From a virus, in the IMG/VR virus record IMGVR_UViG_3300036832_000931, positions 1-59,264 of that record: DNA of 59,264 nt. The stretch is one strand, 5' to 3'. The position numbers were made by a program, and so were the translations under genes. Shown here one piece after another: positions 1,527-37,114 of this stretch. How positions within the stretch are numbered: position 1 is the stretch's first letter; every line of letters starts with the position of its first letter. The notes beneath the pieces were generated by a model, which saw only the letters and a list, made by a program, of their open reading frames with translations, did not search any database and was not told the DNA's origin.

Positions 1527-2647
1527 CTATATATACGCCGCTGCTGGTGCGGCTGACGCTTGTGATTCCACCCATGCGGGGCCTTGACCGCACTTACCGC
1601 AGTGGCACCGTTCTGTACGTTTACCGTGGTATACGCATCCGGCCACCCAATCGGCAGGTCATTCCCCTGCGACAATCCACACGTATAGGCCGTCGCTGTT
1701 AGGACATGGGTACCATTGTTGACCTTTACCGTCGTATCCCACATCCACGGCCCCTGCCCCGGACTACAGGTCAGAAAGCCCATGTCGCTGCTGAGACAAG
1801 CGTAAAAACACACACCAGGATTACCGGAATGTGCCAACTCTACCTTTACCTGACCAGAGACCGTCGTACCTTGTTTGGGACTGCTTATATACAGCGCCGG
1901 CAGCCACGGCTTCTCTGCCATCAGCTGATGTACCCGGTCGATATACGGTAGCGCCCCCTCGTCATACCAGTTACCGCTGTACCAGCTACCCAGACAGCCA
2001 TCACTCATCTCCTGCGCCGTACCGTTGGGATATTGCGGATAACCATGACCCGGAACCTTATCCCCGTAATACTTGATCTCCCCGTTCATACACGCCCGCC
2101 AGTACGAACCCCTGAAGTCGAGCGCGAACGGAGTGCTCTCATACGCCATCGGACACGCATTATAGTTGGTACATTTGATCTGAATTATGCTGTATGACGT
2201 GTAGCAGTAGCCTGCCGGTTGCCACGCATCAAAGCCGTTTCCTCCCGTACAGAGGTCGTGCTCGAACTCGTCGTCCCCCTTGACCGACTGATTCCACCCA
2301 CTCTCATTCCACGCCTGCGCCCTTAACTGCTCTACATCCATCCCCCACTTACACGCCGCCCACTGTATGACCTCGTCGGTGGTCCCCCTGAAGTTCCCAT
2401 CGACGCGAAAAAAGGAAGATGCCGGAGGACCATTAAATTGTAACGGGTTGGCGTAGAACGGCGCTAATTCCCCCGTCGTCGGTATCCGCTGATTGTAAGG
2501 ACTGTTCTGCCCCTTGGTCTCCGGCCGGGGCTGTACCTTGGCCGCACATTCCGCCCCCGACGGTAATGCCCCATTAGGCGGTACAAACTGTGCCCACGCT
2601 CCACTCGCGGTTAACAATAATACCGCGATTATCGCCAGTATCCTCAT
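1523..2647 (-). CDS. Secreted lytic transglycosylase-like protein
   Basis: Start chosen at ATG 2647, behind GGGGAGGGCAGCA; the longer frame only adds repeat-derived residues. Residues 1-19 (MRILAIIAVLLLTASGAWA) form a clear Sec signal peptide. Around residues 108-120, LRAQAWNESGWNQ resembles the catalytic-Glu region of SLT/goose-lysozyme-like folds (A-x-ESGWNP), with E115 the candidate acid. Many Cys and aromatic residues follow, and residues about 270-350 (SPKQGTTVSGQVKVEL) look like an Ig-like beta domain. It may act on peptidoglycan in the periplasm, at lysis or as an exported factor. It overlaps the 68-aa gene by 4 nt. The domain calls are by eye. Confidence 0.7.
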   Translation of the reverse strand: MRILAIIAVLLLTASGAWAQFVPPNGALPSGAECAAKVQPRPETKGQNSPYNQRIPTTGELAPFYANPLQFNGPPASSFFRVDGNFRGTTDEVIQWAACKWGMDVEQLRAQAWNESGWNQSVKGDDEFEHDLCTGGNGFDAWQPAGYCYTSYSIIQIKCTNYNACPMAYESTPFALDFRGSYWRACMNGEIKYYGDKVPGHGYPQYPNGTAQEMSDGCLGSWYSGNWYDEGALPYIDRVHQLMAEKPWLPALYISSPKQGTTVSGQVKVELAHSGNPGVCFYACLSSDMGFLTCSPGQGPWMWDTTVKVNNGTHVLTATAYTCGLSQGNDLPIGWPDAYTTVNVQNGATAVSAVKAPHGWNHKRQPHQQRRIYR

Positions 2648-2673
2648 TGCTGCCCTCCCCTTTGCCGAGCTTC

Positions 2674-2700
2674 GTTTCACCGCTTTATTACGCGGGAACC
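2674..2700 (-). repeat. Hairpin repeat holding a stop codon
   Basis: CCGC/GCGG copy of 27 nt. Its loop supplies the TAA of the gene at 2688-2864, which therefore ends Val-Pro-Ala. Confidence 0.9.
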
Positions 2701-2864
2701 TTGGTCTTACGCTCCTCGTCATTGATGCGCTGGTCTATACCCGCCATCCGGTACCCCAACTGATTTAAATACTTGTACAGCCGCAGACGCTGCAGCTCCC
2801 CCGCATCCTCCACCCACACCCTCATCAACTCCTCATCCGCCTTATCAATCTGCTGCCAGCTCAT
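2688..2864 (-). CDS. Small hypothetical protein (58 aa)
   Basis: ATG at 2864 follows a GGGGGG ribosome site; the longer frame to 2957 has no support. The protein is charged, probably helical, with no recognised domain. Its last residues (KVPA) and stop are encoded by the hairpin repeat at 2674-2700. First gene of the leftward group running to base 1. Confidence 0.6.
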   Translation of the reverse strand: MSWQQIDKADEELMRVWVEDAGELQRLRLYKYLNQLGYRMAGIDQRINDEERKTKVPA

Positions 2865-2918
2865 AACGGCCCCCCTGCTTATTTTGTACTCCTCTACAGG
2901 GGCGGTGAAAATGAACGC

Positions 2919-2947
2919 TTGACTAATTGTGAGCGGAAGCTTAGAGG
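2919..2947 (+). promoter_or_regulatory. Candidate promoter reading into repeat array 1
   Basis: TTGACT at 2919-2924 and TAGAGG at 2942-2947 are 17 nt apart, so a start would fall near 2954, four bases before the first repeat unit. The -35 is good and the -10 weak. The spacer includes a chance-level match to part of a lac operator. Confidence 0.35.
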
Positions 2948-2957
2948 GTTGATGCAT

Positions 2958-3446
2958 GGTTCCTGCGTACTACGGCAGTGAAACTTATTCGGGTTCTCGC
3001 GTATCAGCGATGAAACCTTCGTCGACAATGTCACGGTTCCTGCGGTTGAGCAGTGAAACTCAGCGCGCTCCCGGCTCCTGCGTATCAGCAGTGAGACCCT
3101 TCGCTTTTGTTCATCGGTTCTCGCGTACCCAGCGATGAAACTTTTGAAACTGGATGGTTCCTGCGTGTTAGCAGTGAAACGCTTCCTGGGGCGGCGAACG
3201 GTTCTCGCGTATTCAGCGATGAAACTCGCAAGCTTAACTCCCCGGCTCCCGCGTACCGGCGGTGAGACCCTTCGTCGCTTATGGTTCCTGCGTTTGAGCG
3301 GTGAAACTGATGCCGACGCGAAATGTTCTACTCGGTTCCTGCGTGTTAGCAGTGAAACCCTGATCCAGTCAAAATGTCGGTTCTCGCGTACTTAGCGCTG
3401 AAACTGATGCGCGCCTCGATGGCTCCTGCGTTACCAGCAGTGAGAC
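2958..3446 (+). repeat. Array 1: 12 CRISPR-like hairpin repeats
   Basis: Twelve units of 25-27 nt start at 2958, 2992, 3035, 3073, 3116, 3156, 3200, 3244, 3283, 3334, 3379 and 3421. All point the same way and are separated by unrelated spacers of 7, 18, 13, 18, 14, 19, 18, 14, 26, 20 and 16 nt. The inner stem is CTGC/GCAG (2958, 3035, 3073, 3156, 3334, 3421), TCGC/GCGA (2992, 3116, 3200) or CCGC/GCGG (3244). Unit 3283 pairs with one G-U, and 3379 has one mismatch. Units 3073, 3244 and 3421 change the outer stem from GGTTC/GAAAC to GGCTC/GAGAC, which keeps pairing. Unlike a classical CRISPR, spacers are short and uneven and repeats vary in sequence but not in structure. Open frames across it are incidental. 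Confidence 0.9.
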
Positions 3447-3887
3447 AGGGCTGGATATGCGTCGGGAATTGTTTGGCGCGTAGGGCTGAGGGAATGTACG
3501 CATATGCATATGCTCTCGAGAGGAAGGGCTAGGGGTGGGGTGGCTTAAGGTATCCCTACAAGCCTATAGGTACCATTCCCTGACTGACTAGGACTAGCAG
3601 ACTGAGACCTGACCGTTAGCTAGGCTAGCACAGGGTCAAGCTAACGTTTGCGGGGCTTTCGTGGCTTGTGTGCTTGGCTTGTGTCATCAGTCAGGTCAGC
3701 TAGGCAATCAATCAGATAGGTCTCAGGGAAGTGTCTACTCGAGTAGGTCCACAAAGCTAACCGGCTCCGTCTCAGGTTGATCCAACCTTGCCCTTGCCAA
3801 AAGCGCGCGCGATTGAGCCCACAGTTTCGTACGGATAAGAATTTCGCCACATATCAATATTAAACAGCAAGTTCGGTTTTCCTAATC

Positions 3888-3954
3888 TAACCTGACCCAC
3901 AACCTCGCGACATTTTTTGGTGCAAAAAAACGCGAGTGGGTTGACTGCAGGTTA
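3888..3954. repeat. Long interrupted inverted repeat
   Basis: Four paired segments nest: TAACCTG (3888-3894) with CAGGTTA (3948-3954), ACCCA (3895-3899) with TGGGT (3937-3941), CTCGCG (3904-3909) with CGCGAG (3931-3936), and an inner T6/A6 pair. Small bulges separate them. It sits just upstream of the first rightward gene. Confidence 0.7.
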
Positions 3955-3980
3955 ATTATAGGCTTCCCTTATACTTTACT

Positions 3981-4006
3981 ACCATTTACTATAGCTAGCG
4001 GTTCGA
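3981..4006 (+). promoter_or_regulatory. Candidate promoter motif, copy 1
   Basis: ACCATTTACTATA (3981-3993) followed by GTTCGA at 4001. The same pair of blocks recurs at 6130-6142 and 6151, each time shortly before a gene with an AAGGAG-type site. TACTAT could serve as a -10 box. Confidence 0.35.
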
Positions 4007-4028
4007 CAAGCTTTTAGGAGATAAGGGA

Positions 4029-4355
4029 ATGACAAAAGGCGATCGGATAGTTGTTTTGACGGGTTCACAAGCGGGTCAGTCAGGCGAAGTGATCGAAGTA
4101 ATTGTGGATATGGTTAAGGTCCGCTTGTATGGACGAGAGGGGCTCACGATCGATTATGTCACTCCTACCGACAATGTGATGCTGCGCAGCTGCCTAGTTT
4201 GTGGCGATGCTGACCATCATGGGAATGAGCCCTGTTGCCCCGCATGTAGACATCACAACGCGTTGTTAGGTGCATATGCTGATCAGGGTCAGGTCTACCC
4301 GACGCGGGTCTTAAAATGCCGCGATTGCGGTTATGTCCAAGATATTCGGCGATAA
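4029..4355 (+). CDS. KOW-domain plus zinc-ribbon protein (108 aa)
   Basis: ATG 4029 follows TTAGGAGATAAGGGA. Residues about 1-40 (GDRIVVLTGSQAGQSGEV...VKVRLYGREG) match a KOW motif, the RNA-binding or RNA-polymerase-contacting unit of NusG and ribosomal protein L24. The C-terminal half has CLVC, CCPAC and CRDCG, enough Cys/His for one or two zinc sites; the last resembles the zinc ribbon of transcription or translation factors. First gene of the rightward small-gene cluster. A role in transcription elongation or RNA binding is inferred from the domain only. Confidence 0.75.
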   Translation: MTKGDRIVVLTGSQAGQSGEVIEVIVDMVKVRLYGREGLTIDYVTPTDNVMLRSCLVCGDADHHGNEPCCPACRHHNALLGAYADQGQVYPTRVLKCRDCGYVQDIRR

Positions 4356-4385
4356 GGAGAGTTAAGGGACAATGACTAGAAGGAT

Positions 4386-4445
4386 GAGTGGACCCGGGGC
4401 AAGCCCCGGGTTTAAATGGCGGGTCAGGTCACAAGCCCTGACAAC
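4386..4445 (+). terminator. Double hairpin cassette, copy 1
   Basis: Perfect 9-bp hairpin ACCCGGGGC-AA-GCCCCGGGT (4392-4411) followed by TTTAAAT, then a second hairpin GTCAGG (4423-4428)/CCTGAC (4437-4442). The whole cassette recurs at 4730-4787. The T run is short, so termination may be partial. Confidence 0.55.
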
Positions 4446-4722: not shown

Positions 4723-4729
4723 CCTGCAG

Positions 4730-4787
4730 AGTGGACCCGGGGCTCAACCCGGGTTTAATGCGCAGTCAGGTCACAAGCCCTGACCAA
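4730..4787 (+). terminator. Double hairpin cassette, copy 2
   Basis: ACCCGGG (4735-4741)/CCCGGGT (4748-4754), then GTCAGG (4765-4770)/CCTGAC (4779-4784). Homologous to 4386-4445 outside the genes as well as in the stems, with the first loop changed. Confidence 0.55.
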
Positions 4788-7095: not shown

Positions 7096-7257
7096 ATGTT
7101 CTACCTCAATATCAAGTCTATATCGCCACCGTTCTACCAGATGCGGTTGTATCGTACCTCGCGGCAACTGTATCAGGTGCAGTTCGAGAACGGTGCTGCA
7201 ATCACCGTCACTGATACCGGTCGCATCGTTGCGCTGGTATATGGGCAAAGCAAATGA
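7096..7257 (+). CDS. Small hypothetical protein (53 aa)
   Basis: ATG 7096 follows TTAAGGAGGGAGGCAAG. A short beta-rich peptide with no domain recognised. Its stop overlaps the DUF29 start (ATGA at 7254), suggesting coupled translation. Confidence 0.55.
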   Translation: MFYLNIKSISPPFYQMRLYRTSRQLYQVQFENGAAITVTDTGRIVALVYGQSK

Positions 7258-7712
7258 AGGACTATCACGCATGGTTGCTGGAACAGGCTGCGGCGCTGCG
7301 CCGCCGTGACATCGAAGCGCTCGACTGCGACGAGCTGGCTGAGGAGGTGGAGGGGATGGCAAGGACCGCGCGCCACCATATAAAAGTGGGACTAAGAACG
7401 ATCCTCGAACATCTAAGCAAGCTGGCGTACAGCAAGCCTACCCATCGCCTGTGGCGCGCAGCTATCAGCCGCTCCCGCGATACTATCAAGCTGCTGCTCG
7501 AAGAGTCACCAGGGCTCAGACAGTACCTCGATGAATATAGAGTCAAAGGCTATCGCCGCGCTCGTCGTCTGGCCGGTGAGTCCTTGGGCTGGGAACGCAA
7601 GCAATGGGAAGCCAACCTCCCAGCCGAGTGCCCGTGGACGCTCGAGCAGATCCTTGATGAGGATTTCTTCGCCGACGGTGACAATGACGGCGACTGGATC
7701 CCGATATTTTAG
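7254..7712 (+). CDS. DUF29 family protein, paralogue 1
   Basis: The full 152 aa fit DUF29: Y-H-A-W-L-L-E-Q-A near the start, LDCDELAEEVEGMARTARHH, then a helix with LSKLAYSKP and a C-terminal W-E-A-N-L-P-x-E-C-P-W-T-L. DUF29 proteins are common in cyanobacteria and purple bacteria and their function is unknown. A second member lies at 12854-13288, beyond the TnpB-like locus. Translationally coupled to the preceding 53-aa gene. Confidence 0.85.
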   Translation: MKDYHAWLLEQAAALRRRDIEALDCDELAEEVEGMARTARHHIKVGLRTILEHLSKLAYSKPTHRLWRAAISRSRDTIKLLLEESPGLRQYLDEYRVKGYRRARRLAGESLGWERKQWEANLPAECPWTLEQILDEDFFADGDNDGDWIPIF

Positions 7713-9209: not shown

Positions 9210-9353
9210 ATGTCGCTTAGTGAGTACCTCGATGCGCGATTACGTCGAGCCGAGATCGAAATCATTATTGCCACCATCATGATTGTCGGGCTGGGCGATG
9301 CTGCGTTGTTCTGGGGGCTCTCGATACTTCTGCAACACAAGTTTCACTGCTAA
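9210..9353 (+). CDS. Single-pass membrane peptide (47 aa) ending in a repeat
   Basis: ATG 9210 starts 2 nt after the DUF1874 stop. One membrane helix (IIIATIMIVGLGDAALFWGL). The last four residues (KFHC) and the TAA come from the minus-oriented hairpin repeat at 9341-9365, one of few copies opposed to local transcription. Confidence 0.5.
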   Translation: MSLSEYLDARLRRAEIEIIIATIMIVGLGDAALFWGLSILLQHKFHC

Positions 9354-9365
9354 TGCGCAGGAACC
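9341..9365 (-). repeat. Hairpin repeat opposed to local genes
   Basis: CTGC/GCAG copy on the minus strand within the rightward gene cluster; it supplies the end of the gene at 9210-9353. Confidence 0.9.
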
Positions 9366-9726: not shown

Positions 9727-9986
9727 AATACTTACGCGCAAGCTCTGACGGCATGTGGATGTTGTTCTTCCCCGTCCTATCGCTCTTCTTCGTGATCTTC
9801 ATCCTCGTTATTACCGATGATGACGGCGTCTCGCGCAAACAGGAGGTTAAAGCGTGCGACATTGCCGTGCAGCAGCTGATGACCACTCATGATCTCGTCG
9901 AACTCCAGCGCGATGAATGGCTGATACATCACTTGCGTTGTTGGGTCACTCGGCGCGCAGTGCCGATACTGGTTCCTGCGAAATGA
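9723..9986 (+). CDS. Membrane protein (87 aa), stop in a repeat
   Basis: One N-terminal membrane helix (MLFFPVLSLFFVIFILVI), then a soluble region with two Cys. The C-terminus VPAK and the TGA are read from the hairpin repeat at 9971-9996. Last small gene before the TnpB-like gene, 39 nt away. Confidence 0.5.
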   Translation: MKYLRASSDGMWMLFFPVLSLFFVIFILVITDDDGVSRKQEVKACDIAVQQLMTTHDLVELQRDEWLIHHLRCWVTRRAVPILVPAK

Positions 9987-9996
9987 GCAGTGAAAC
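9971..9996 (+). repeat. Hairpin repeat upstream of the TnpB-like gene
   Basis: CTGC/GCAG copy, loop GAAATGA. It ends the preceding gene and lies 29 nt before the TnpB-like start, after which AATAAGGGA gives a ribosome site. Confidence 0.9.
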
Positions 9997-10025: not shown

Positions 10026-11444
10026 ATGAGAAAAAGGAAAAGAGACTGGCCGATGAGGGTGATCAAGATTCGTGCGTATCCGAGAGTGATCCCGGATAGC
10101 GTCTGGGCGATCGCGAAGGACCAGAGAAAGCTGTGGAATGATTTGACCAGTATGTGGAAGGCGACCGCTGATCTGGCGGCCAACCTGCCTGAGCAGAAAA
10201 AAGAAATGTGGAAACAGTTTGAGGACTGGGCGGCAGCGGCCGTTAAACTGTCCGGCCTCGACTGGGTTAATGGACCGGATATTTTAGATAGATTGCGTGC
10301 TACCACGCGCTCGCGCAAACAGGCTCCACGCTTTCATGGTGCGCTGCAAAGGGTGTCGATCGGGCACAGATATACCGGCGGCGGGAAGGCTCTGGAGGAG
10401 GTGATTGATCCAGGCGTTCAGGTCAGACGATTCGCCTTGGTCTCATCGAAGGACTGGATCGCCTCGCAGCGCTCACAGATCGGTCAGCATTCGCCCAAGC
10501 GCAAGCATTGGCGCGGCCGCTTCCAGGTCGGTGAAGAGACGATTGAGTACTCGTTGGCGCTTCATCGCGAGCTGCCTGAGCGCGCGATTTTGAAGCGTGT
10601 GGCATGGCTGGGTGAGCGCAGTGGCCCGACATGGTTTTGGTACTTGGCGCTCACGGTGGAAGAAGAGCCGGTACAAGGTTCCTGCGTGACGACGAGCAGT
10701 GAAACTACAAGCTCTGCCGCTATCGACCTGGGCTGGCGGTTATTTGCCGATGGGACCAAACAGGACCGGCTGCGGGTCGGCATGCTGGCTGATTCCGAGG
10801 CGCGCATGATCGAGCTGCGGTTGCCGCTGCGCCTGCGGCCTAACCGCGTTCAGGAACAGCGCGGGCTGGATACCATCGCACAGTGGCAGGCCGAGGCTTC
10901 CAAGCTCGACAAGAGCTCTGACGAGTACCGCATGCTCACCCGCGAGATGAGACAGTTACGCTTTCGCTTAATCCAAAGGCGCAGATGGTACTACCTCAAT
11001 CTCGCCAACTGGCTCTGTCAGCGATACAAGCGGATTGCGCTCGAGGATATGAGCATCAAGGATCTGCATCGTAAGCCGGATGATCCCGCCTTGCAGAATA
11101 GCGCGCAGTATCGCAATTACGCGGCGATTGGGGAATTCCGTGCCCTGCTCCTGCGCACCGCCACCAAATACGGCTGCGAGGTCATTCCCGTCGATTCGAT
11201 TGACTCGACCAGGACGTGCTGGGAATGCGGAGCCAAGGCCGAGGCGAGTGGGCACCTGACGCTTAAATGCGAGAACGGGCACGAATGGGATCAGGATAAA
11301 AACGCCGCTCGTAATCTGTTCTCGCAACTGGAGGGGACTTTCGGGCAGACACACAGTTTGCGAAAAATAACGACTACTGGTAAGTGGAAACGATTGGAGT
11401 TGCCGGAGTCTATTGGAGCGGTTGCAGTTGAGGTTCCTGCGTGA
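10026..11444 (+). CDS. TnpB/Cas12-like RuvC nuclease (472 aa)
   Basis: ATG 10026 follows TTAATAAGGGAATACTCTA. The C-terminal half is a RuvC domain with all three acidic motifs: AAIDLGW (D234), IALEDMS (E340) and WDQDKNAARN (D424). A zinc ribbon sits between the last two (C398, C401, C415, H419), as in TnpB and type V (Cas12) effectors. The N-terminal half (1-215) would be the RNA/DNA-recognition part. D-L-G-W-R in motif I recalls the compact Cas12m/V-U group, but the subtype is uncertain. No TnpA transposase or IS ends are nearby. Two repeats touch the gene: one in frame at 10677-10705, encoding residues 218-227 in the linker before RuvC-I, and one supplying its stop (VPA, TGA). Array 2 follows directly, as an omega-RNA follows tnpB. 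Likely RNA-guided nuclease; guide source unproven. Confidence 0.85.
   Translation: MRKRKRDWPMRVIKIRAYPRVIPDSVWAIAKDQRKLWNDLTSMWKATADLAANLPEQKKEMWKQFEDWAAAAVKLSGLDWVNGPDILDRLRATTRSRKQAPRFHGALQRVSIGHRYTGGGKALEEVIDPGVQVRRFALVSSKDWIASQRSQIGQHSPKRKHWRGRFQVGEETIEYSLALHRELPERAILKRVAWLGERSGPTWFWYLALTVEEEPVQGSCVTTSSETTSSAAIDLGWRLFADGTKQDRLRVGMLADSEARMIELRLPLRLRPNRVQEQRGLDTIAQWQAEASKLDKSSDEYRMLTREMRQLRFRLIQRRRWYYLNLANWLCQRYKRIALEDMSIKDLHRKPDDPALQNSAQYRNYAAIGEFRALLLRTATKYGCEVIPVDSIDSTRTCWECGAKAEASGHLTLKCENGHEWDQDKNAARNLFSQLEGTFGQTHSLRKITTTGKWKRLELPESIGAVAVEVPA
10677..10705 (+). repeat. Hairpin repeat inside the TnpB-like gene
   Basis: 29-nt CTGC/GCAG copy read in frame as GSCVTTSSET. It falls in the linker directly before RuvC motif I, where extra residues should be tolerated. 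Confidence 0.9.
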
Positions 11445-12003
11445 TGAGCAGTGAAACCGATAAGCAGAGCATCGCAGGCAACCGGTTCTCGCGGTTGCAG
11501 TGGAGGTTCCTGCGTGACGAGCAGTGAAACTTGGGTACGGCGACTTCGATGAAGTACAAATCAAAGGTTCCTGCGTTACCAGCAGTGAAACAGGCCATCA
11601 GGAGTTCCTCGATTTTCTCGCAGCCCTGAGTTGCAGTAGAGGTTCCTGCGTAATGAGCAGTGAAACTACTAATCCTGCTCAGTGCGGCCTGCGAATGAGC
11701 ATTGAGGTTCCCGCGTACGGGCGGTGAAACAATGAACAAACAGTTTCGATCAAGATTGTCATCACAGTTGGTGGTTCCTGCGTAATGAGCAGTGAAACAG
11801 CTGGAGATCACGCAGCTTGAGGTTCGTGCGTAAGGGCGCTGAAACTAGAAGCACAAGATGGTTCGCGCGTAAGGGCGCTGAAACTCATACACGGTCGAAT
11901 CGGTTCCCGCGTACTGGCGGTGAAACAGAGAGCCGTTTCAGGGTTCCCGCGTGTGGGCGGTGAAACAGGAGAAATGAGGTTCCTGCGGATACAGCAGTGA
12001 AAC
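11432..12003 (+). repeat. Array 2: 11 CRISPR-like hairpin repeats fused to the TnpB-like gene
   Basis: Units start at 11432, 11505, 11566, 11641, 11706, 11773, 11821, 11860, 11902, 11942 and 11978, all on the plus strand. A decayed half unit lies at 11484. Spacers are 47, 35, 49, 39, 42, 22, 14, 17, 15 and 11 nt, so they shorten along the array. Inner stems: mostly CTGC/GCAG, CCGC/GCGG at 11706, 11902 and 11942, GCGC/GCGC at 11860, and GTGC/GCGC (one G-U pair) at 11821. The first unit holds the TGA of the TnpB-like gene, so gene and array are probably one transcript. The array ends at the convergent stop of the gene at 12006-12197. Confidence 0.9.
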
Positions 12004-12853: not shown

Positions 12854-13288
12854 ATGAAAACGTACGAAACCGATTACTTCGCGTGGGCCAACCACCAAGT
12901 CGCGCTGCTGCGCAGCACCCAGCCCGAGTGGCTCGACTGGAAGAATCTGGCTGAGGAGGTGGAGGACTTGGGGCGCAGCGTGCGGTTTAGCGTGGAAAGT
13001 CACCTCGAGAACGTGCTGGTGCATCTGCTCAAGGCGCGCTACCAGCCCGCCCGGAGCAGCCGCAGCTGGGAGACCTCGGTGCTCAACGCCCGACTGCGCA
13101 TCGAGCGGCTGTTGCGCGAATCGCCTAGTTTGAAGGCGAGGCTGCCGGAGGCGCTAATGGAAGCCTACCGGCTGGCGCGAGGCGAGGCTGGTAGCCAAAT
13201 GGGCATGGACCGCCGACAGTGGGAGGCGACTCTCCCGCCAACTTGCCCGTGGAGGCTGGCGCAGGTGTTGGGGGATGAGCCGCTCTGA
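12854..13288 (+). CDS. DUF29 family protein, paralogue 2
   Basis: The 144 aa match DUF29: YFAWANHQVALLRSTQPEWLD, KNLAEEVEDLGRS, SHLENVLVHLLKARYQP, and WEATLPPTCPWRL at the end. Clearly related to 7254-7712 but diverged. ATG 12854 is preceded by AGTGAAAC, the 3' end of the hairpin repeat without the rest, and another 3' half unit (13286-13298) follows the stop. Function of DUF29 unknown. Confidence 0.85.
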   Translation: MKTYETDYFAWANHQVALLRSTQPEWLDWKNLAEEVEDLGRSVRFSVESHLENVLVHLLKARYQPARSSRSWETSVLNARLRIERLLRESPSLKARLPEALMEAYRLARGEAGSQMGMDRRQWEATLPPTCPWRLAQVLGDEPL

Positions 13289-15913: not shown

Positions 15914-17099
15914 TAACTCGCCCCTCCCCAGCGTCTGGTATAGTTTCATCCACCGGTTCCTGCGTGGAAGCAGTGAAACGTTCTGGCTCATGCTCATCAC
16001 GCGCAGCGCTGTAGATGTATCGAGCGTAGTACTTGAACACGGTCTCAAGCCGATCGCCCATCAGCTCCGCGACCTGACCAGGGGTTAGCCCTTGCTCGAA
16101 ACAGTCCACGGCGAACGAATGCCTCATGACGTTCGGAGCTCGATACTTCAGCCCCGTCGCCTTGAACATCGGCCGCCAGTTGCGGTTGGTCCAGTTCTGC
16201 AGATTGAGACGTGCCCCTCGACGACCACGGAAGATCAGGCCCGTTTCATCGATCGGGATGTCTAACCGGCTGAGCACGGCCATGAGCCGTGCCGCGTTTC
16301 TCGGGGGCAGCTTTACAGTACGATGTGCGCGTTTCGTCTTGGTTCCTCGTATCGTAGCCCACTTCCCAGTGTCAGGAAGATCTTCCCGCAGAAGACCCAG
16401 CACCTCCGACGGTCGAGGCCCCAGGGCAAAGCCCAGTTCCACGATCGACCAGTCTTGGACGGTCTTGGCTACCGCCGACAGCTTCAACTGATCGGCCGGT
16501 GGAATGGGATCGATCTCCTCAGTCGCGCCTGAGGGCGGGTTCTCGATAAACTTCATCGGGTTTTTGCTGATCACCTCATCCGCTTCAAGCATCAAGAAGA
16601 TCTTCCGCAGCCGCTGAATGAACTGAGCTATCAGCCGATCCGGCTTGCCGGGGCGGTCTGACCGCCGCTCTACCCCATCGATCGCAGCCTGGATGTCCTT
16701 ACGCATAATCTCGCGCACGTCCATCTCCCCCAGCGCGGTGCCGTCGAGAAAGCGGCTGAACAAATACTCAACCCCCTTCGTCGTCTTTGCGCTTCTATAC
16801 TTCTGGGTATTCAGCCACTGCCGAGCTACGACGCGAAGAACCATAACGGGAGCAGCCGCCGCTTCCGCCTCTGCCACAGCCTTCAGCGCTTTGGCCGCCA
16901 TCGAATTGGGGAAGAATTCTTCAAGTGTGAACGTACCCTCCTTGATCGCATGGGTGACCCGCCGCTCAAGCGACGCGTACTGGCGACGATTCTCTTTGGT
17001 TGCACGCACGCCCTTGCCGACGCTGGGCCGATAAACCTTGCCCTGCCAGCGGAACTCCAGACACAGCCGGTTACGATTGCCTTTGATAAGTGATGCCAT
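15891..17099 (-). CDS. int: Tyrosine-type integrase (402 aa)
   Basis: Residues 1-50 form an arm-site binding domain (DUF3596-like), about 85-185 the core-binding SAM-like domain, and 205-365 the catalytic domain. Catalytic landmarks: GPRPSE (R229), K254/K256 on the beta hairpin, MRHSFA (R326, H327), and VFKYYARY with the nucleophile Y357 or Y358. Length is typical. The tail carries an antisense hairpin repeat (15955-15979), read as RFTASTQEP (374-382), which lengthens the C-terminus after the nucleophile helix. Catalyses site-specific insertion of the phage into the host chromosome. Confidence 0.93.
   Translation of the reverse strand: MASLIKGNRNRLCLEFRWQGKVYRPSVGKGVRATKENRRQYASLERRVTHAIKEGTFTLEEFFPNSMAAKALKAVAEAEAAAAPVMVLRVVARQWLNTQKYRSAKTTKGVEYLFSRFLDGTALGEMDVREIMRKDIQAAIDGVERRSDRPGKPDRLIAQFIQRLRKIFLMLEADEVISKNPMKFIENPPSGATEEIDPIPPADQLKLSAVAKTVQDWSIVELGFALGPRPSEVLGLLREDLPDTGKWATIRGTKTKRAHRTVKLPPRNAARLMAVLSRLDIPIDETGLIFRGRRGARLNLQNWTNRNWRPMFKATGLKYRAPNVMRHSFAVDCFEQGLTPGQVAELMGDRLETVFKYYARYIYSAARDEHEPERFTASTQEPVDETIPDAGEGRVNDDRLDV
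15955..15979 (+). repeat. Hairpin repeat antisense within the integrase gene
   Basis: CTGC/GCAG copy on the strand opposite to the integrase mRNA, in frame and without a stop in the integrase reading frame. Confidence 0.9.
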
Positions 17100-17151: not shown

Positions 17152-17176
17152 GTTTCACTGCTAATACGCAGGAACC
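17152..17176 (-). repeat. Hairpin repeat abutting a repressor-like gene
   Basis: CTGC/GCAG copy; its first G is the G of the TAG stop of the gene at 17176-17424. It lies 53 nt upstream of the integrase start. Confidence 0.9.
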
Positions 17177-17683: not shown

Positions 17684-17709
17684 GGTTCCTGCGTTAAGAG
17701 CAGCGAAAC
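17684..17709 (+). repeat. Hairpin repeat in the RecT operon leader
   Basis: CTGC/GCAG copy with the bulge T changed to C. It ends one base before the GGAGGGG ribosome site of the gene starting at 17721. Confidence 0.85.
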
Positions 17710-20626: not shown

Positions 20627-20866
20627 ATGAAAATCCCATCAGAGGAACTCGATATTATCGCGACCACCGTCGCTGAGATCGAACAGATCCTAAAAGGAAA
20701 AGGGTCCGCTATGCAGGGGGCAATCCTGGGCGATCTGCTCGCGACATGGCTGCACGGTCATAGCGACGTAGATGATGATCCAGTCAAGACAGCAGAAGTG
20801 CGCGATGAGCTACTCGCGGTACATATCAATTATGTCAAGCTGCTGGTGGCAGCGAACGACCTATAG
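20627..20866 (+). CDS. Small hypothetical protein (79 aa)
   Basis: ATG 20627 follows GGGGATAGAG. Helical and acidic, no family recognised. Its TAG shares the G with the first base of the repeat at 20866-20890, the same abutment seen at 17176, 36814 and others. Confidence 0.6.
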   Translation: MKIPSEELDIIATTVAEIEQILKGKGSAMQGAILGDLLATWLHGHSDVDDDPVKTAEVRDELLAVHINYVKLLVAANDL

Positions 20867-20890
20867 GTTCCTGCGTGTGAGCAGTGAAAC
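20866..20890 (+). repeat. Hairpin repeat between small gene and methyltransferase
   Basis: CTGC/GCAG copy starting on the last base of a TAG stop and ending 16 nt before the methyltransferase ATG. Confidence 0.9.
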
Positions 20891-20906: not shown

Positions 20907-21821
20907 ATGAGCATCAAAGTCTTCTACAACGACAACGACCTGTATTGCGTGGAATGGTTAAACAATCTAATCGAGGCAGGGCACCTGCCGGAAGGAACCG
21001 TTGATGGCCGCAGCATCGAAGACCTTGAGCCCGCCGACCTTGACAGATATACGCACGCGCATTTCTTCTGCGGACTTGGAGGCTGGCCCTACGCCCTCGA
21101 GCTTACCGGGTGGCCACCAGACCAGCCTGTTTGGACCGGCAGCCCACCCTGTCAGCCCTTCAGCGCCGCCGGCAAAAGACAAGGAGACGCTGATAGCCGG
21201 GACTTGTGGTCGGCTTGGTTCCGGCTCATCCAAGAGTGTCGCCCTGCAACAATCTTTGGTGAACAGGTTGATGGAGCGATTGGGTGGGGATGGTGGGATC
21301 GAGTATGCGCTGACCTGGAAGGCGAAGATTACGCCTGCGCGGCGGCGCTATTGCCAGCTTGCAGCGTCGGCGCGCCCCATCTCCGCAACCGGCTTTTCTG
21401 GGTCGCAACCCTTGACGGGCTGGCCGACGCCAAACCCCCCGACCGGTGGTCGTTCAATCTTAAACATCGACCAGATGGACCCGACGGGCCGGACGGTGGA
21501 CGGCCGGAAACATACGGCGAGTCTGGAACACGCGGTGAAATTCACGGGCTGGGCAACACCGACCTCGCGCGACCACAAGGACGGAGCCTCGGACCTGAGC
21601 AACGTTCCGATCAACTGTCTGCTTGGGCGGCAAGCACGCCTATCTGGTGCAGTGATGGAAAGTGGCGGCGGGTACCGCTTGAACCACGGTTTCAGCCTTT
21701 GGCTGATGGGCTACCCGGTCGACGAGTGGCTGTCCTGCGTGCCGCGGGGAACGCCATCGTCTCCCAAGTCGCGGCAGAGTTCGTAAGAGCATTTCTCGAG
21801 GTTCCTGCATGTGAGCAGTGA
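20907..21821 (+). CDS. dcm: DNA cytosine-C5 methyltransferase (304 aa)
   Basis: ATG 20907. Motif I FFCGLGG (53-59), motif IV GSPPCQPFS with catalytic C82, motif VI as GEQV (E119, usually ENV), motif VIII HLRNR, and a C-terminal AAGNAI (motif X) identify a C5-methyltransferase. The recognition domain (about 175-265) is short, Gly/Pro/Asp-rich and overlaps a second gene in another frame. Methylates cytosine, probably to protect phage DNA from restriction or to regulate it. The C-terminus VPACEQ and the TGA are encoded by the repeat at 21800-21824. Confidence 0.88.
   Translation: MSIKVFYNDNDLYCVEWLNNLIEAGHLPEGTVDGRSIEDLEPADLDRYTHAHFFCGLGGWPYALELTGWPPDQPVWTGSPPCQPFSAAGKRQGDADSRDLWSAWFRLIQECRPATIFGEQVDGAIGWGWWDRVCADLEGEDYACAAALLPACSVGAPHLRNRLFWVATLDGLADAKPPDRWSFNLKHRPDGPDGPDGGRPETYGESGTRGEIHGLGNTDLARPQGRSLGPEQRSDQLSAWAASTPIWCSDGKWRRVPLEPRFQPLADGLPGRRVAVLRAAGNAIVSQVAAEFVRAFLEVPACEQ
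21001..21786 (+). CDS. Overlapping-frame phage protein inside the methyltransferase gene
   Basis: In a different frame, fully inside the methyltransferase, runs a 261-codon frame with features of a known phage protein family: EYALTWKAKITPARRRYCQL, then GWPTP, LLGRQARLSG, YRLNHGFSLWLMGYP and TPSSPKSRQSS. I recall this pattern (YALTWK...LNP-x-x-S-R-W-L-M-G-Y-P-x-E-W...T-P-S-S-R-K-S) as a recurrent phage protein, often labelled methyltransferase. The true start is unclear; the recognisable part begins near 21180. No strong ribosome site is seen, so frameshifting or coupled initiation is possible. Confidence 0.6.
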   Translation: MMAAASKTLSPPTLTDIRTRISSADLEAGPTPSSLPGGHQTSLFGPAAHPVSPSAPPAKDKETLIAGTCGRLGSGSSKSVALQQSLVNRLMERLGGDGGIEYALTWKAKITPARRRYCQLAASARPISATGFSGSQPLTGWPTPNPPTGGRSILNIDQMDPTGRTVDGRKHTASLEHAVKFTGWATPTSRDHKDGASDLSNVPINCLLGRQARLSGAVMESGGGYRLNHGFSLWLMGYPVDEWLSCVPRGTPSSPKSRQSS

Positions 21822-21907
21822 AACATCAAGCTGAGCACTGCGCCTTAAGGTTTTTTTCTTAAAGCGCATGTACAATCGAACAGGTTCCTGCGTACCAGCA
21901 GTGAAAC
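21800..21907 (+). repeat. Two hairpin repeats after the methyltransferase
   Basis: Copies at 21800-21824 (loop ATGTGA, supplies the methyltransferase stop) and 21883-21907. Between them, 21839-21866 holds a different 10-bp hairpin, GCGCCTTAAG/CTTAAAGCGC, with T7 in its loop. Confidence 0.88.
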
Positions 21908-21926: not shown

Positions 21927-22385
21927 GTGAAAAAGCTAGTCCTGACTCCCGCTAGGGGGTTCGTGCGAACATCCAAAAAAGGGGTGTGGCAACCCAAAGA
22001 GTCCACCAGTCAATCCCAAGTGTTCGACTGGGCTAGGTGGGCACGGGGGCGTTATCCCGAACTCGATCTGATGTTCGCCGTCCCGAACGGATTTCCCCTC
22101 CACGGTCCTCAGCGTTTTGCCGTGGTCAATTATATGAAAGCGCAGGGGCTCAAGAACGGCGTGCCCGACATCAGCTTGCCCATCGCCCGCGGCGGATTCT
22201 TCCACAAATGGATCGAGATGAAGGTCAAAGGCGGGCGACTGAGTGAGGCACAGGAGGTCTGGATCCAAGCGCTCCGTAACGCCGGCGGGGACGTCTCAAT
22301 TTGCGAGTCGTTCGAGGAAGCGGTGGCTGATCTGGAAGGCTATCTTCAGTTGCCGAACACGCTCTCGTTCAGTGAAACGAATTAG
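21927..22385 (+). CDS. VRR-NUC domain endonuclease (152 aa)
   Basis: The VRR-NUC fold (a PD-(D/E)XK branch) is clear: VPNGF, then NGVPDISLPIARGGF with the metal-binding Asp, WIEMKVKGGRLSEAQ (E-x-K) and a C-terminal helix. Related phage proteins act on DNA junctions or flaps. GTG 21927 is used here; GTG 21963, behind AGGGGG, is a better-supported alternative. The end (FSETN) reads through a deleted repeat remnant (GTTC joined to AGTGAAAC). Overlaps the converging gene by 17 nt. Confidence 0.85.
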   Translation: MKKLVLTPARGFVRTSKKGVWQPKESTSQSQVFDWARWARGRYPELDLMFAVPNGFPLHGPQRFAVVNYMKAQGLKNGVPDISLPIARGGFFHKWIEMKVKGGRLSEAQEVWIQALRNAGGDVSICESFEEAVADLEGYLQLPNTLSFSETN

Positions 22386-23409
22386 TCATCGCTTCGAGAC
22401 GCTCGCGCGCAGAAGCCTGCAGCGTGAGCATATTAATCTCCATTGGATCGGTGATTGGCAGTTGCTCCGGATTAACTGGAAGCTGCGACTTCGGCATCTT
22501 GGCCTCGGTGGCAGCATCCCAGCGGTTCTGCTCGTTAAGCAGCGCGAGTTCCCACCACTGCGCGAGTTTGTGCGCGATCGGAGGGAACAGGCACGAACTT
22601 TTACCCGCGAGCACATGATCCTCCCACTCGGTCTTGCTCGCGTTAATGCTGTAATAAGCGCACATTGCTGAGAATGAGTGGAATTGCCAGCCATACAAGA
22701 TGACCGGCAATTCGATACTCCTCCGCTGTTGGGCGCGCTGGCGATGGTGGCGAGCGTAGGCTCTGGCGTGTGCGAGGGCACCTTCTAGGCCTTCCTGTTT
22801 GATCCACCGCCTCACGACTCCCGGCGCTAGCCGGTAACGCCGACGCAGTTCACGAACAAACGCCACGAGACTGGGATAGGTGGTCCCATCGACAAGGATC
22901 CGGCTCCGTTCGACATCGCGCCGGAGCTGTTCGACATTATTGCCATTGGCACATAGTCGCGAATCAATCGTAGAGACTGGAAGACCGAGCCGAGGGGACA
23001 ATTCCCGAGCCAGCGCGCTGCGACTTAGTTCTCGTCCTTCGAACATGATGACGCGTGTCGGAGAAACACCGCGGCGGCGCGATGTCCGGTGCGTTTGACA
23101 CCACCGCAGCGCAGCATCGCCATCGCCATCATGATTTCGAATAATCGCTTTGAGCCATTTGACGCTGCGACCGGTAGATTGCGCTAATTCCTGAGCGGCC
23201 ACTTGCAAGGAAGGATATTCTCGACCGTTATACGTAATAGTACGTCGGTGGCGTTTCGGTTGCTGTTCGGACACGGCGTCACCGTCACCGTTTTGTGCCT
23301 TGAGAAGCTGATGGAGCCGCCGGAGACTCAGCCCAGTCTCCGGCTCCAGAAGCTTGGCGACGGCTTGAAGGGAGGTATATTGCTGACCCTTGTATGTTGC
23401 GCCGCGCAT
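22369..23409 (-). CDS. Modular repeat protein, probably DNA-binding (346 aa)
   Basis: At least three to four modules of about 45-60 residues share the plan Y-x-G-R-E-Y-x-S-L-x-x-x-A-x-x-L...G-x-S-x-x-x-L: YKGQQYTSLQAVAKLLEPET, YNGREYPSLQVAAQELAQST, a diverged FEGRELSRSALARELSPRLG, and VDGTTYPSLVAFVRELRRRY. The design resembles NUMOD-type DNA-binding repeats attached to homing nucleases, but no nuclease motif is visible. ATG 23409 directly follows the stop of the upstream gene (TAAATG). Confidence 0.6.
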   Translation of the reverse strand: MRGATYKGQQYTSLQAVAKLLEPETGLSLRRLHQLLKAQNGDGDAVSEQQPKRHRRTITYNGREYPSLQVAAQELAQSTGRSVKWLKAIIRNHDGDGDAALRWCQTHRTSRRRGVSPTRVIMFEGRELSRSALARELSPRLGLPVSTIDSRLCANGNNVEQLRRDVERSRILVDGTTYPSLVAFVRELRRRYRLAPGVVRRWIKQEGLEGALAHARAYARHHRQRAQQRRSIELPVILYGWQFHSFSAMCAYYSINASKTEWEDHVLAGKSSCLFPPIAHKLAQWWELALLNEQNRWDAATEAKMPKSQLPVNPEQLPITDPMEINMLTLQASARERLEAMTNSFH

Positions 23410-24612
23410 TTAAACAGACAGCTGTTCGAACGCCGATCCCGCGGCCGGAGCTGCGGGGACGACCCGGCGGCGGCGGGCGAGCACATCACGCTCCCGACGC
23501 TCGGCCGCCTTACGCTCAGCCGCTTTGTTCCTGGCCCGAACGGCCGTCTGGTGAACGGCGTTGAGCTCCTCACGAAGCACCGGATTGAAGGTCGCGATCA
23601 CTCGCTGATCCGTCGGAAATTTATCTGCTTTGAAATCGCGCGCCGTCTTCCACCCCTCATAAGCATTGAGCACGTTCGCGAGCACCATCAAGTCGCGCTG
23701 ATCTCCTGTAATCTTGATCTTTTGCTTCTCGTTTTTAGAGAGGAGTTGATTTTCGACCATTTTTATAGCGTAAAACGCGTCCATCAAACCGTCCATGTAA
23801 GCACCTTTTTCAGTTTGCAACTTCTCGAGGAACTCTCTCCCGCGTTCTCCATCGCGGTGCAGAACTGACAGATAACCAGCGATGAAAGCTGAGCCTAAAG
23901 GCATTTCCGACTTCGTGGGCGCGAGTGCATCAAGTGCTTCGAGCGCTGGTTTGAAATAATGAACGCTGGCGAGCAGCGGCAAACTTCGATGGACTTGCTG
24001 ATAGATAGGATCTGGATTCTCTTTCGCGAGCAACACTTCGCGAAATTCACTCATCACGGTACTGCCGCACACCGTTGCAGCGAGCTGCAGCACTTTACTC
24101 AGTCCACTTGCTTGACGCAGCCACCACCAGTTCGGGGTGATTTTCGCTACCCGAACCGTCGTCTGGTTCATATCTCTTCTAGCTTTAACCGCAATCAACG
24201 AATCTAAAGCATTGTAAGCCTTCGTTGCAGCGGCCATGTCGGTAGCAGCATAGACCGTAGTGCGTACGGTCGCCGGAGCCGGGATCCCCTCGAGACTCCA
24301 GACGTGGGTTCGCGTATGACCATTAAGTTTGTGTCCGCGTCGGCTGAATGCATCGTCGTGACTTGCATGCCACAAGCTGCTCAGGGATTCGATCGTATCG
24401 CCCTGCTCCGGTCTGCCGATCAGAATGGCGGCGACTTCCCGATGCTGGTCCAGAGGTTCATCGAGCACGCCTGAACTTATGAGTCTCGCAGCGTGCAAAA
24501 CAGTCTGCCGCTGGGCTGGATGGTCTGGCAACGCTGTGAACGTCCCAAGGGGCAGATCCTTGATCGTCTCCAAGTGAAGGATGTGGGGATTTGCAACAAA
24601 CGGAGCTGTCAT
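23410..24612 (-). CDS. ParB-like protein (400 aa)
   Basis: Start at ATG 24612, behind GGAGGAAAC. Residues about 20-125 contain VAAILIGRPEQGD and HKLNGHTRTHVW, resembling the GHTR box of ParB/Srx-type phage proteins that bind nucleotide and DNA. The C-terminus is basic (ERKAAERRERDVLARRRR). Possible partition or regulatory role; the link to ParB is weak. Confidence 0.5.
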   Translation of the reverse strand: MTAPFVANPHILHLETIKDLPLGTFTALPDHPAQRQTVLHAARLISSGVLDEPLDQHREVAAILIGRPEQGDTIESLSSLWHASHDDAFSRRGHKLNGHTRTHVWSLEGIPAPATVRTTVYAATDMAAATKAYNALDSLIAVKARRDMNQTTVRVAKITPNWWWLRQASGLSKVLQLAATVCGSTVMSEFREVLLAKENPDPIYQQVHRSLPLLASVHYFKPALEALDALAPTKSEMPLGSAFIAGYLSVLHRDGERGREFLEKLQTEKGAYMDGLMDAFYAIKMVENQLLSKNEKQKIKITGDQRDLMVLANVLNAYEGWKTARDFKADKFPTDQRVIATFNPVLREELNAVHQTAVRARNKAAERKAAERRERDVLARRRRVVPAAPAAGSAFEQLSV

Positions 24613-24755
24613 GTTTCCTCCAGCGCCTTTTCGAGGCTGCAACTTTGGTTTGACGTGCTGTTCTGCGCGCCGAGCGGACTATACGCCTTTGCGATAAAAT
24701 ATTACAATAGCGAGTGCCAGTGATCGAATAATTGGGTGGGAAAGCGGATGTGACG

Positions 24756-25013
24756 ATGAGATACGGCATGATCACAGGAGCTCAGATTCGTGCGGCTCGT
24801 GCCCTGCTTGGGTGGACGGCTACCGATCTGGCTGAAAAATCCGGCGTCAGCTATGCGTCGATCCAGCGCGCGGAGGCAGTCAACGGCGTCAGCACGATGC
24901 GGGCAAAGAATCTTTACGCTTTACAGCGCGCGCTTGAGGACGGTGGAGTGATCTTCCTTGGCGCTAGCGATAACGGTGGCGATGGATTGCGGCTGAAGTG
25001 TGAACTAAGTTAA
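24756..25013 (+). CDS. XRE-family helix-turn-helix regulator (85 aa)
   Basis: ATG 24756. The sequence GAQIRAARALLGWTATDLAE followed by KSGVSYASIQRAE is a clear HTH_3 domain, with a short C-terminal strand region (GVIFLG). It is the lone rightward gene between two leftward blocks and faces the ParB-like gene across an AT-rich 140 bp (TAAAATATTACAATA near 24697), so it may control that promoter. Its TAA overlaps the converging 43-aa gene. Confidence 0.8.
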   Translation: MRYGMITGAQIRAARALLGWTATDLAEKSGVSYASIQRAEAVNGVSTMRAKNLYALQRALEDGGVIFLGASDNGGDGLRLKCELS

Positions 25014-25141
25014 GGTTCAGGGGGGCAGCGGTATTTCTCGTTCCACGCGACATACCACGCGAATGCGATCACGGTCACCACTCCACCGACGAAGCCGAAG
25101 ATACAGCCCAACACCAGACCGTCTATAAACGGTGTCATCAT
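25010..25141 (-). CDS. Small membrane protein (43 aa)
   Basis: ATG 25141 (or 25138) follows AAGGGGGGGCACTGCC. One long hydrophobic stretch (LVLGCIFGFVGGVVTVIAFA) then a short polar tail. Downstream end of the tail operon, where holins often lie, but no proof. Its stop overlaps the opposite stop at 25011-25013. Confidence 0.5.
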   Translation of the reverse strand: MMTPFIDGLVLGCIFGFVGGVVTVIAFAWYVAWNEKYRCPPEP

Positions 25142-25165
25142 GGCAGTGCCCCCCCTTGGGCTATT

Positions 25166-25546
25166 TTAGGCGGTCTTCTCTCCCACTACTTCCTCGATCA
25201 CCAATCCAGCCACTACCGGTGAATAGGCAGCTGCAGTCAGTTGTGAGGCGACCGCGATCAAATGCACCCACTGATCGCGTCCTACATCGCCGGCATACTG
25301 CAACAGCGCGGTATGGAACTGTGCGAAGCTCTTCCACACCACTTTCTCGGTGGGTGACAGCACCATCTCCGGTGCTTTCGGTGCAACGATGGAGATGCGC
25401 GGGCGGTTAATTGGTGGACGATCCTGCAACGAAATCAGTTCCCGTTGCAGCCGCTGGAGTTCCTGCTGAAAAGGGGTATCCGGCAGTGCCTGCTGGAGTT
25501 CGAGGATCTGCCGCTGCAATTCTTCGAGTTGGACTTTCATGCTCAT
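25166..25546 (-). CDS. Tail-associated coiled-coil protein (126 aa)
   Basis: N-terminal coiled coil (LEELQRQILELQQAL) followed by a module VVWKSFAQFHTALLQYAGDV...DQWVHLIAVASQLTAA. The same module occurs in 28174-28533 and 29892-31052. Overlaps the large tail spike by 4 nt (ATGA). Probably a fibre accessory or assembly protein. Confidence 0.6.
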   Translation of the reverse strand: MSMKVQLEELQRQILELQQALPDTPFQQELQRLQRELISLQDRPPINRPRISIVAPKAPEMVLSPTEKVVWKSFAQFHTALLQYAGDVGRDQWVHLIAVASQLTAAAYSPVVAGLVIEEVVGEKTA

Positions 25547-27999: not shown

Positions 28000-28003
28000 T
28001 AAC

Positions 28004-28174
28004 TTATTCCTTCATTACCACGCCATTAGCTGGCAATGCGTCAGCAGGTAGTTGTGGCTTCGCCTGCTCCATAATGGCGTTAATCAGGGGCATCGCACGT
28101 TTGATCGATTGATCCCCCAGCATGTCCAAAATCTGGTTCCATTGTTCAACGGTTAGTTTGATCGTTATTTCCAT
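28004..28174 (-). CDS. Small tail-cluster protein (56 aa)
   Basis: ATG 28174 overlaps the preceding stop (TAATG) and has GGGGGAAC upstream. Short amphipathic helices (VEQWNQILDMLGDQSI). It lies between two fibre genes; function unknown. Confidence 0.55.
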   Translation of the reverse strand: MEITIKLTVEQWNQILDMLGDQSIKRAMPLINAIMEQAKPQLPADALPANGVVMKE

Positions 28175-28533
28175 TAGAATGTTCCCCCGTCGATCGGGCT
28201 TAGTAATTGCCAACTCGCAGTTGCACCATTTCTAACGTAGGGTTGCGATGCTCCGGTTGGGGCCTCCCCTAGACCCCCCGCTGGTCCAGGCGGCCCTTGT
28301 GCTGGCACTCCGGTATCGGTGGTACCAACAAACCAATTGCCGTTGGGGCCGATATATGGGCTCTCGGAAACTCCGGCGGTCAGATGCGCAGCGACATCCA
28401 GAATGCGGTAGTACTGATCCTGATTCAGCTCGCCCAGTACGGAGGTGAGCTTGGTCAGCATGTACATAAAGGTGTCCCAAGTATTTTGCTCGTCAGCCGG
28501 CAGAGGCGCTCGGGGAATTGCTGCTGCTGCCAT
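28174..28533 (-). CDS. Tail-associated protein with DQY module (119 aa)
   Basis: ATG 28533 follows GCTGAGGTGAAAC. The N-terminal half (NTWDTFMYMLTKLTSVLGEL...DQYYRILDVAAHLTAG) matches the module in 25166-25546 and 29892-31052; the rest is Gly/Pro-rich (GPPGPAGG, collagen-like). Likely a fibre component. Confidence 0.6.
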   Translation of the reverse strand: MAAAAIPRAPLPADEQNTWDTFMYMLTKLTSVLGELNQDQYYRILDVAAHLTAGVSESPYIGPNGNWFVGTTDTGVPAQGPPGPAGGLGEAPTGASQPYVRNGATASWQLLSPIDGGTF

Positions 28534-28541
28534 GTTTCACC

Positions 28542-29882: not shown

Positions 29883-29891
29883 TTCTGATCC

Positions 29892-31052: not shown

Positions 31053-31378
31053 GCTGGCGTTATGATCTGACTAAATGTTGCGGTTGAAGCCATCGGGACC
31101 AACCCAATCATCGGCGGATAAGTGCGGCCGTTATCCGAGACGTAGACCTGAAGCACCATGCCCTGAACCAAAGAAACGGTGGTCATATTGCCCGAAGTGT
31201 CGGTGGTCGCCGTGATGATGATGGGCTGGACGACCATGCTGGACAGTGATTGTGGCACCATGCTGTTGAACGTGATGGTACCGTGCTGGACGGGGTTGCC
31301 ATCGACGCGCAGGACCGTCCCCGACACCGTGCAGACCGCAACGGACGTAGCTCGTGGTTCAACTCCTGGCAAACTCAT
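31049..31378 (-). CDS. Small beta-rich virion protein (109 aa)
   Basis: ATG 31378 overlaps the preceding stop (ATGA); GGGGAG lies upstream. The sequence CTVSGTVLRVDGNPVQHGTI reads as a carboxypeptidase-regulatory/Ig-like beta sandwich. Coupled to both neighbours, so probably a tail component. Confidence 0.6.
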   Translation of the reverse strand: MSLPGVEPRATSVAVCTVSGTVLRVDGNPVQHGTITFNSMVPQSLSSMVVQPIIITATTDTSGNMTTVSLVQGMVLQVYVSDNGRTYPPMIGLVPMASTATFSQIITPA

Positions 31379-33294: not shown

Positions 33295-33312
33295 GTCATT
33301 TGCTCTCTTATC

Positions 33313-33361
33313 GTTTCCCCGCTAACGTGCAGCGATGGTTCCCGCGTAGAGGCGGTGAAAC
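33313..33361 (+). repeat. Hairpin repeat opposed to the late operon, next to a decayed copy
   Basis: An intact CCGC/GCGG copy at 33337-33361 points against the leftward late genes. Directly beside it, 33313-33333 holds a decayed 3' half in the opposite orientation. Confidence 0.8.
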
Positions 33362-33369
33362 ATTTTTGC

Positions 33370-34287: not shown

Positions 34288-34308
34288 GACATAGAACAGT
34301 CAGCCGCG

Positions 34309-35408: not shown

Positions 35409-35425
35409 TTGTTCTTCCACTCCTG

Positions 35426-37088: not shown

Positions 37089-37114
37089 GTTTCACCGCCA
37101 ATAACGCGGGAACC
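37089..37114 (-). repeat. Hairpin repeat between scaffold-like and DUF3008-like genes
   Basis: CCGC/GCGG copy, starting on the G of the scaffold-like gene's TAG and ending 14 nt before the next start. Confidence 0.92.

Follow-up and report, generated by a model that had tools for sequence, protein, structure and literature searches.

Covarying repeat hairpins, arrayed and dispersed through a phage genome, as candidate guide handles of its own Cas12m-like effector

A twelve-unit array of short hairpins in a phage genome (array 1) is probably a compact guide array, in which 25-nt handles alternate with spacers of about 17 nt and the handles are likely bound by the phage's own type V-M-like effector; we put the probability of this reading at roughly 0.6. 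The window, that is the whole stretch of DNA analysed, spans all 59,264 bp of one complete IMG/VR record; the phage is temperate and encodes terminase, portal, integrase and RecT. The array itself was confirmed, and the finding has to be widened to a genome-wide set of handles. A structure-aware scan together with a covariance model gave 71 copies of the hairpin in the window. Array 1 accounts for 12 of these and a second array beside the effector gene (array 2) for another 11, and 48 are dispersed, leaving 59 copies outside array 1. A strict form of the motif had 67 sites in the window and was absent from three shuffles.

Array 1 and its hairpin units

Array 1 lies at positions 2958-3446 on the + strand and is made up of hairpin units of 25-27 nt, which start at 2958, 2992, 3035, 3073, 3116, 3156, 3200, 3244, 3283, 3334, 3379 and 3421 and end at 3446. 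The spacers measure, in order, 7, 18, 13, 18, 14, 19, 18, 14, 26, 20 and 16 nt (range 7-26 nt), giving a mean unit of about 42 nt. The preliminary description of this DNA had reported twelve same-strand units within 489 bp, separated by unique spacers mostly 13-20 nt long, and both statements were borne out, with all twelve units inside the interval and 9 of the 11 spacers in that size range. The repeats are not near-identical: several stem types occur, the loops are mostly different and the constant part is the hairpin core only.

The unit consensus is an imperfect hairpin, GG-YTC-NNGC-G(loop)-GCNN-T-GAR-AC, of 25-27 nt. After the initial GG, YTC pairs with GAR and a four-base-pair stem (NNGC/GCNN) carries a loop, mostly of 6-7 nt, whose first base is G; the result is 7 bp with one bulged U, a G.A mismatch at the foot and a 3' AC. 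Across the copies the pairing was kept in 99.6% of cells (2 of 504 stem cells were unpaired), and when the partner strand was slid by one to three columns as a control, pairing was only 33-50%. Three pairs vary on both sides (UA/CG; CG/UA/GC; UA/CG), and compensated cells numbered 38 as against 11.3 in shuffles, none of 500 shuffles being as high. Individual units are divergent yet covary as hairpins. No covariation was found in outer pairs beyond the hairpin. Because the stem pairing is kept while the loops vary almost freely (55 distinct among 69), each copy is taken to be under selection on the hairpin and not to have been copied recently. Folding of array 1 as a whole gave an ordinary stability (z 0.10), so the signal resides in the local hairpins and their covariation and not in a global fold. 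Rfam returned no family at array 1.

The array had also been credited with a possible promoter of its own. A TTGACT box (2919-2924) and a TAGAGG box (2942-2947) do stand before array 1 on the + strand (2919-2947) with a spacing of 17 nt, but TAGAGG is weak, agreeing with TATAAT at 3 of 6 positions, and a promoter scan of 2600-4100 reported 0 against 1.2 expected by chance. The AGAGGG sequence upstream of the array could equally serve as a ribosome-binding site for an ATG at 2955. A terminator search over 2600-4100 reported none.

The first gene after array 1 (4029-4355, +) encodes a protein with a KOW motif and a zinc ribbon, which is RNA-binding or transcription-factor-like. Two Twister-P5 ribozymes above the Rfam gathering score (4383-4440 and 4725-4782, +) lie between small early ORFs downstream of the array, and the phage carries two DUF29 genes (7254-7712 and 12854-13288, +).

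The comparison of spacers with phages that had been proposed for array 1 came back empty: neither the spacers nor the tracts downstream of handles had a credible target in the window, in the nearest phage (the syntenic phage G002) or in the public phage set. BLAST of both arrays against public phages gave chance-level matches only, and the matches of guides to the window itself and to G002 did not exceed those of offset controls. Within the window, two spacer matches of 12 nt, at 20776 and 10796, were rejected as near chance and without a fitting layout.

A Cas12m-like effector and the repeats of its relatives

The distant gene that the preliminary description had labelled TnpB-like lies at 10026-11444 (+) and encodes 472 aa. 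This label did not hold, as TnpB ranks below Cas12m by profile, PDB and fold alike, and the predicted protein is nearest to Cas12m (type V-U1/V-M). It matched the PADLOC Cas12u1 profile at 3e-33, and in the PDB the Cas12m entries 23vw (2e-20) and 23vu (8e-11) came well before ISDra2 TnpB (8bf8, 0.003). The NCBIfam guided_TnpB model gave 66.8, below its cut-off of 100. The four best folds for the predicted structure were all Cas12m entries, with Cas12m2 the best, the model itself being of low confidence (pLDDT 54). The RuvC D, E and D positions are conserved (D234/E340/D422,D424); Cas12m proteins with this triad are reported to bind double-stranded DNA without cutting it, and Cas12m proteins process pre-crRNA within the repeats (PMC11013384). 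A search for Cas1 found none in the window.

Array 2 (11420-12003, +) consists of 11 hairpin units, placed by the scan and covariance model at 11432-12003, and begins at the effector stop codon. A 5' extension, GTTGCAGTNGA, precedes the hairpin in units 1, 2 and 4, where the repeat is therefore 37 nt long and the spacers are 35-39 nt; successive spacings are 73, 61, 75, 64 and 68 nt for the first five and fall to 37-47 nt later on. In layout and spacing these first units are like the arrays of related phage effectors. Some array 2 loops (11432-11845, +) hold TGATG or TAATG, stop-start overlaps between tiny ORFs beginning MSSET, possibly by chance.

Relatives of the effector were found in three phages (L133, L134 and L135), all confirmed as members of the Cas12u1 family (PDLC00930; E 1e-108, 1e-60 and 2.5e-34), with only 24-33% identity to the window protein. 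In each case an ordinary CRISPR array follows the effector gene directly, in the same orientation, with 72-74-nt units and 36-nt repeats that end in a hairpin followed by GAGAC or GCGAC, the whole repeat consisting of 12-13 nt, the hairpin and (G)AC. No adaptation gene was found in the window or in these relatives. A further example of the hairpin came from L033, a phage-like contig of 3.2 kb from a Candidatus Binataceae genome bin, which has two copies spaced at 75 nt whose 5' part, GTCGNAAYCGA, is similar to the array 2 extension. The repeats of the window, L033, L133 and L135 share one fold of 13-14 nt, hairpin and AC. That of L133 reads as 13 nt, a hairpin G-CTC...GAG and AC, beside G-YTC...GAR-AC for the window handle, and GCTC...GAGAC is common to the L133 repeat and array 1. 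The two-unit array of L033 (160-260, -) is a possible hint at the host lineage.

The foot of the hairpin can be compared with a known crRNA. In the Cas12m2 structure (PMC10442227), G(-23) of the crRNA pairs with A(-2), the helix begins at -3, position -1 is C and the guide duplex measures 17 bp, and the window foot, GG-YTC...GAR-A-C, agrees with this 3' end in the G.A(-2), the helix from -3 and the C(-1). Given this agreement, the relatives' arrays, the layout of array 2 and L033, the hairpin is best read, from sequence comparison, as corresponding to the 3' portion of a V-M-like repeat, which array 1 and the dispersed copies have in shortened form, as a handle of 25 nt. The earlier remark that the array 1 spacers are near type V guide length fits well, as they bracket the 17-bp duplex of Cas12m2.

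The Cas12m-like effector, the arrays adjacent to its relatives and the layout of array 2 together make it likely that array 1 is a guide array. Each unit would be a minimal crRNA repeat, or handle, with the guide lying 3' of it. Transcription would begin upstream of 2958, and the effector would bind the handles of the transcript, which would be cut into guides of about 42 nt (a 25-nt handle plus about 17 nt); the units of array 1 are already close to this mature size. With such guides the effector would block the DNA of competitors or host genes. The core of the preliminary interpretation, a compact type V guide array, therefore probably stands in so far as the effector is nearest to Cas12m and the 3' ends of the relatives' repeats are alike, but the set of handles proved wider than the arrays. 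Several observations count against the guide model. At 7 to 26 nt the spacers are of uneven length, and some could not accommodate a guide of 17 nt; the uniformity of the units is far below that of CRISPR repeats; the 5' third of the repeat is missing from array 1 and from the dispersed copies; and array 2 next to the effector is a single case in the window. The missing spacer targets and Cas1, the weak promoter, the low identity of the effector to its relatives and the pLDDT of 54 weigh on the same side.

Dispersed handles and what they may do

The preliminary description took the arrays to be the full extent of the repeats. The arrays are real, but 48 solitary copies occur elsewhere, in mRNAs across the genome. 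Placed with ad hoc gene calls, 41 of the 44 scorable dispersed copies lie on the coding strand (binomial p 8e-10), a bias that persists through several switches of gene direction. Half of the intergenic copies that follow a same-strand gene (12 of 24, as against 3.6 expected) start -1 to +4 nt from the stop codon. These strand and gene-end biases point to a role in RNA. The intercistronic hairpins were rejected as terminators because they have no T run.

Copies at stop codons are found on the + strand at 20866-20890 and on the - strand at 17152-17176, 36789-36814, 37089-37114, 38229-38254, 39562-39587, 51736-51760, 52563-52587, 53695-53719, 54810-54834, 56604-56628 (the terminase stop codon) and 58341-58365; the copy at 41328-41353 (-) directly follows a stop codon. 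Within genes, copies occupy variable linkers, and G002 has some of these linkers in shorter form or not at all. One sits in the effector gene itself, in a low-confidence linker just before RuvC-I (10677-10705, +). On the - strand there are linker copies at 37391-37416 (a variable linker), 41105-41129, 41646-41672, 41704-41729, 41845-41879 (with a 16-nt loop), 44763-44787 (in a linker shorter in the syntenic phage), 47910-47934 and 50120-50145, and two variant copies with a GTGTAAAC 3' end in repetitive gene linkers (49518-49544 and 50490-50515). A slightly degenerate copy lies near a gene 3' end (40081-40105, -). Antisense copies are those at 9341-9365 (-, relative to the neighbouring genes), 15955-15979 (+, within the integrase gene) and 33337-33361 (+, relative to the late operon). 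The remaining + strand handles are at 9971-9996 (upstream of the effector), 17684-17709 (bulge C instead of T), 21800-21824 and 21883-21907. On the - strand the others are at 1271-1295, 2674-2700, 36565-36589, 38188-38212, 40580-40605, 55686-55710, 55983-56008, 56045-56069, 56081-56105, 56564-56588, 58295-58320, 58917-58943, 58960-58984, 59007-59031, 59180-59204 and 59221-59245. In the tail/fibre gene block (22000-36500) the sense strand is free of handles, in contrast to the remainder of the late operon.

This dispersal was seen in the window only. A generic handle scan gave 65 sites for the window, 0 for G002, 3 for G201 (its array) and at most 1 each for G202 and G203; the relatives carrying effector and array had no dispersed handles. 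When 2.9 million viral contigs were scanned for the exact pattern, none besides the window had multiple copies, and the single matches look like chance. Scanning 84,980 species for the hairpin returned L033 and one likely chance match. G002, whose late genes are 34-76% identical in the aligned parts, was found to have neither the effector nor the hairpin. Since the relatives are without dispersed handles and the viral scans were negative, it looks, on this sequence evidence, as if one lineage has spread its handle through its own operons. Two side observations concern these genomes. G202 has its array at both contig ends, suggesting a circular genome of about 69 kb. G002 (L128-L131; e.g. L128:15793-15808) has about ten dispersed 16-bp palindromes, TTCACCGCGCGGTGAA and close variants, which have no loop and whose arms are those of the window's CCGC-type hairpin with one base pair added.

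Each solitary handle would be a binding and cutting site within a phage mRNA, where the tract 3' of it may become a guide or the mRNA may be processed. The candidate roles are to yield guides from the phage's own mRNA, to process or regulate that mRNA, or to decoy a host Cas12m. The first would make the phage transcriptome a guide library, with handles after stop codons letting 3' mRNA tracts guide the phage's own Cas12m-like effector. Its own DNA would be protected by the adjacent handle, as CRISPR repeats protect theirs, and related phages without the handle could be silenced. We offer this extension of the guide reading tentatively.

A role confined to mRNA is rather unlikely as an account of the whole set. 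On this view the intercistronic hairpins would be bound by the effector or by a different RNA-binding protein of the phage, for instance the KOW/zinc-ribbon protein, and phage mRNAs would thereby be cut, protected or regulated; the arrays would be sponges, and there would be no guided DNA binding. In its favour are the sense-strand and stop-codon biases described above, the processing of pre-crRNA within repeats by Cas12m proteins (PMC11013384) and the position of the KOW gene just after array 1. However, array 2 opens with 37-nt repeats and spacers of 35-39 nt, which are left unexplained, as are the ordinary arrays beside the effector's relatives, and the stretch of tail genes at 22-36 kb has no sense copy.

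We also regard it as unlikely that the handles are RNA anti-CRISPRs (Racr-like decoys), handle-bearing phage RNAs that tie up the Cas12m of a host V-M system with the same repeat. There is precedent, in that solitary repeat units in phages inhibit cognate CRISPR systems and Racrs exist for many types (PMC10651486; PMC11656645), and most copies in the window are indeed solitary and in the transcribed sense. The known units, however, are described as occurring singly or in small numbers, behind a promoter and apart from cas genes, whereas here an effector with an adjacent array is encoded on the same genome and would be sequestered too. Nor was a host V-M system with this repeat found: in the L033 phylum the motif occurred in 1 of 198 genomes, and this was the phage-like contig L033 itself.

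Selfish palindromic repeats, REP-like or resembling the Rickettsia palindromic element, which spread by inserting themselves wherever this is tolerated, in linkers and between genes, would account for copies in gene gaps and variable linkers, some shorter or absent in G002, but are very improbable. The near-complete stem pairing and the variety of loops speak for purifying selection on each copy and not for recent copying, and the strand bias is strong. Mobility of the TnpA/REP kind was rejected, as no TnpA Y1 transposase was found and a 9-nt flanking duplication accompanies one copy only. An array of the TIGR-Tas type, suggested by tandem hairpins with variable loops and spacers in a phage, was rejected as scarcely credible, since the window has no Nop-domain protein and its spacer pattern is unlike the two 9-nt spacers of TIGR arrays (PMC12045711).

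Relation to known systems

CRISPR handles are normally confined to one array. Alongside its own compact Cas12m-like effector, the phage described here has about 70 minimal handles that covary, and two thirds of these stand alone within its operons. If the effector uses these handles, they would represent either a route to guides that needs no spacer acquisition or the domestication of a CRISPR effector to process or regulate phage mRNA, and either would be new. In addition, the 71 natural variants define a 25-nt minimal handle that is useful for compact Cas12m work.

Type V-M CRISPR-Cas12m (formerly V-U1) is alike in effector family, by profile, sequence and fold, and in having an array after the effector on the same strand, repeats that end in a hairpin and AC with G.A at the foot, a spacer length near the 17-bp duplex of Cas12m2 and no adaptation gene found. 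It differs in that the window effector has 472 aa against about 600 and array 1 has 25-nt handles with spacers of about 17 nt against 36 plus 36; moreover, compensatory changes accompany the divergence of the window units, the phage's own transcripts contain about 48 solitary handles and no target was found. The TnpB/omega RNA systems of IS200/IS605 and IS607 share the nuclease superfamily and a guide-bearing RNA after the effector gene, whereas the window protein matches Cas12m best, has no Y1 transposase with it and is accompanied by many short hairpins instead of one long omega RNA. TIGR-Tas systems also have tandem hairpin arrays in phages, with a Nop-domain protein and a different unit layout. 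Solitary repeat units of the Racr kind are likewise single repeat-like hairpins in a phage genome; the window has dozens where those number one or a few, mostly inside operons and not behind a promoter of their own, and an effector on the same genome. Finally, the mini-CRISPR arrays carried by viruses in interviral conflict are similarly short and virus-borne, but they use repeats borrowed from the host with normal spacers, whereas the repeats of the window are self-specific, shortened and dispersed.
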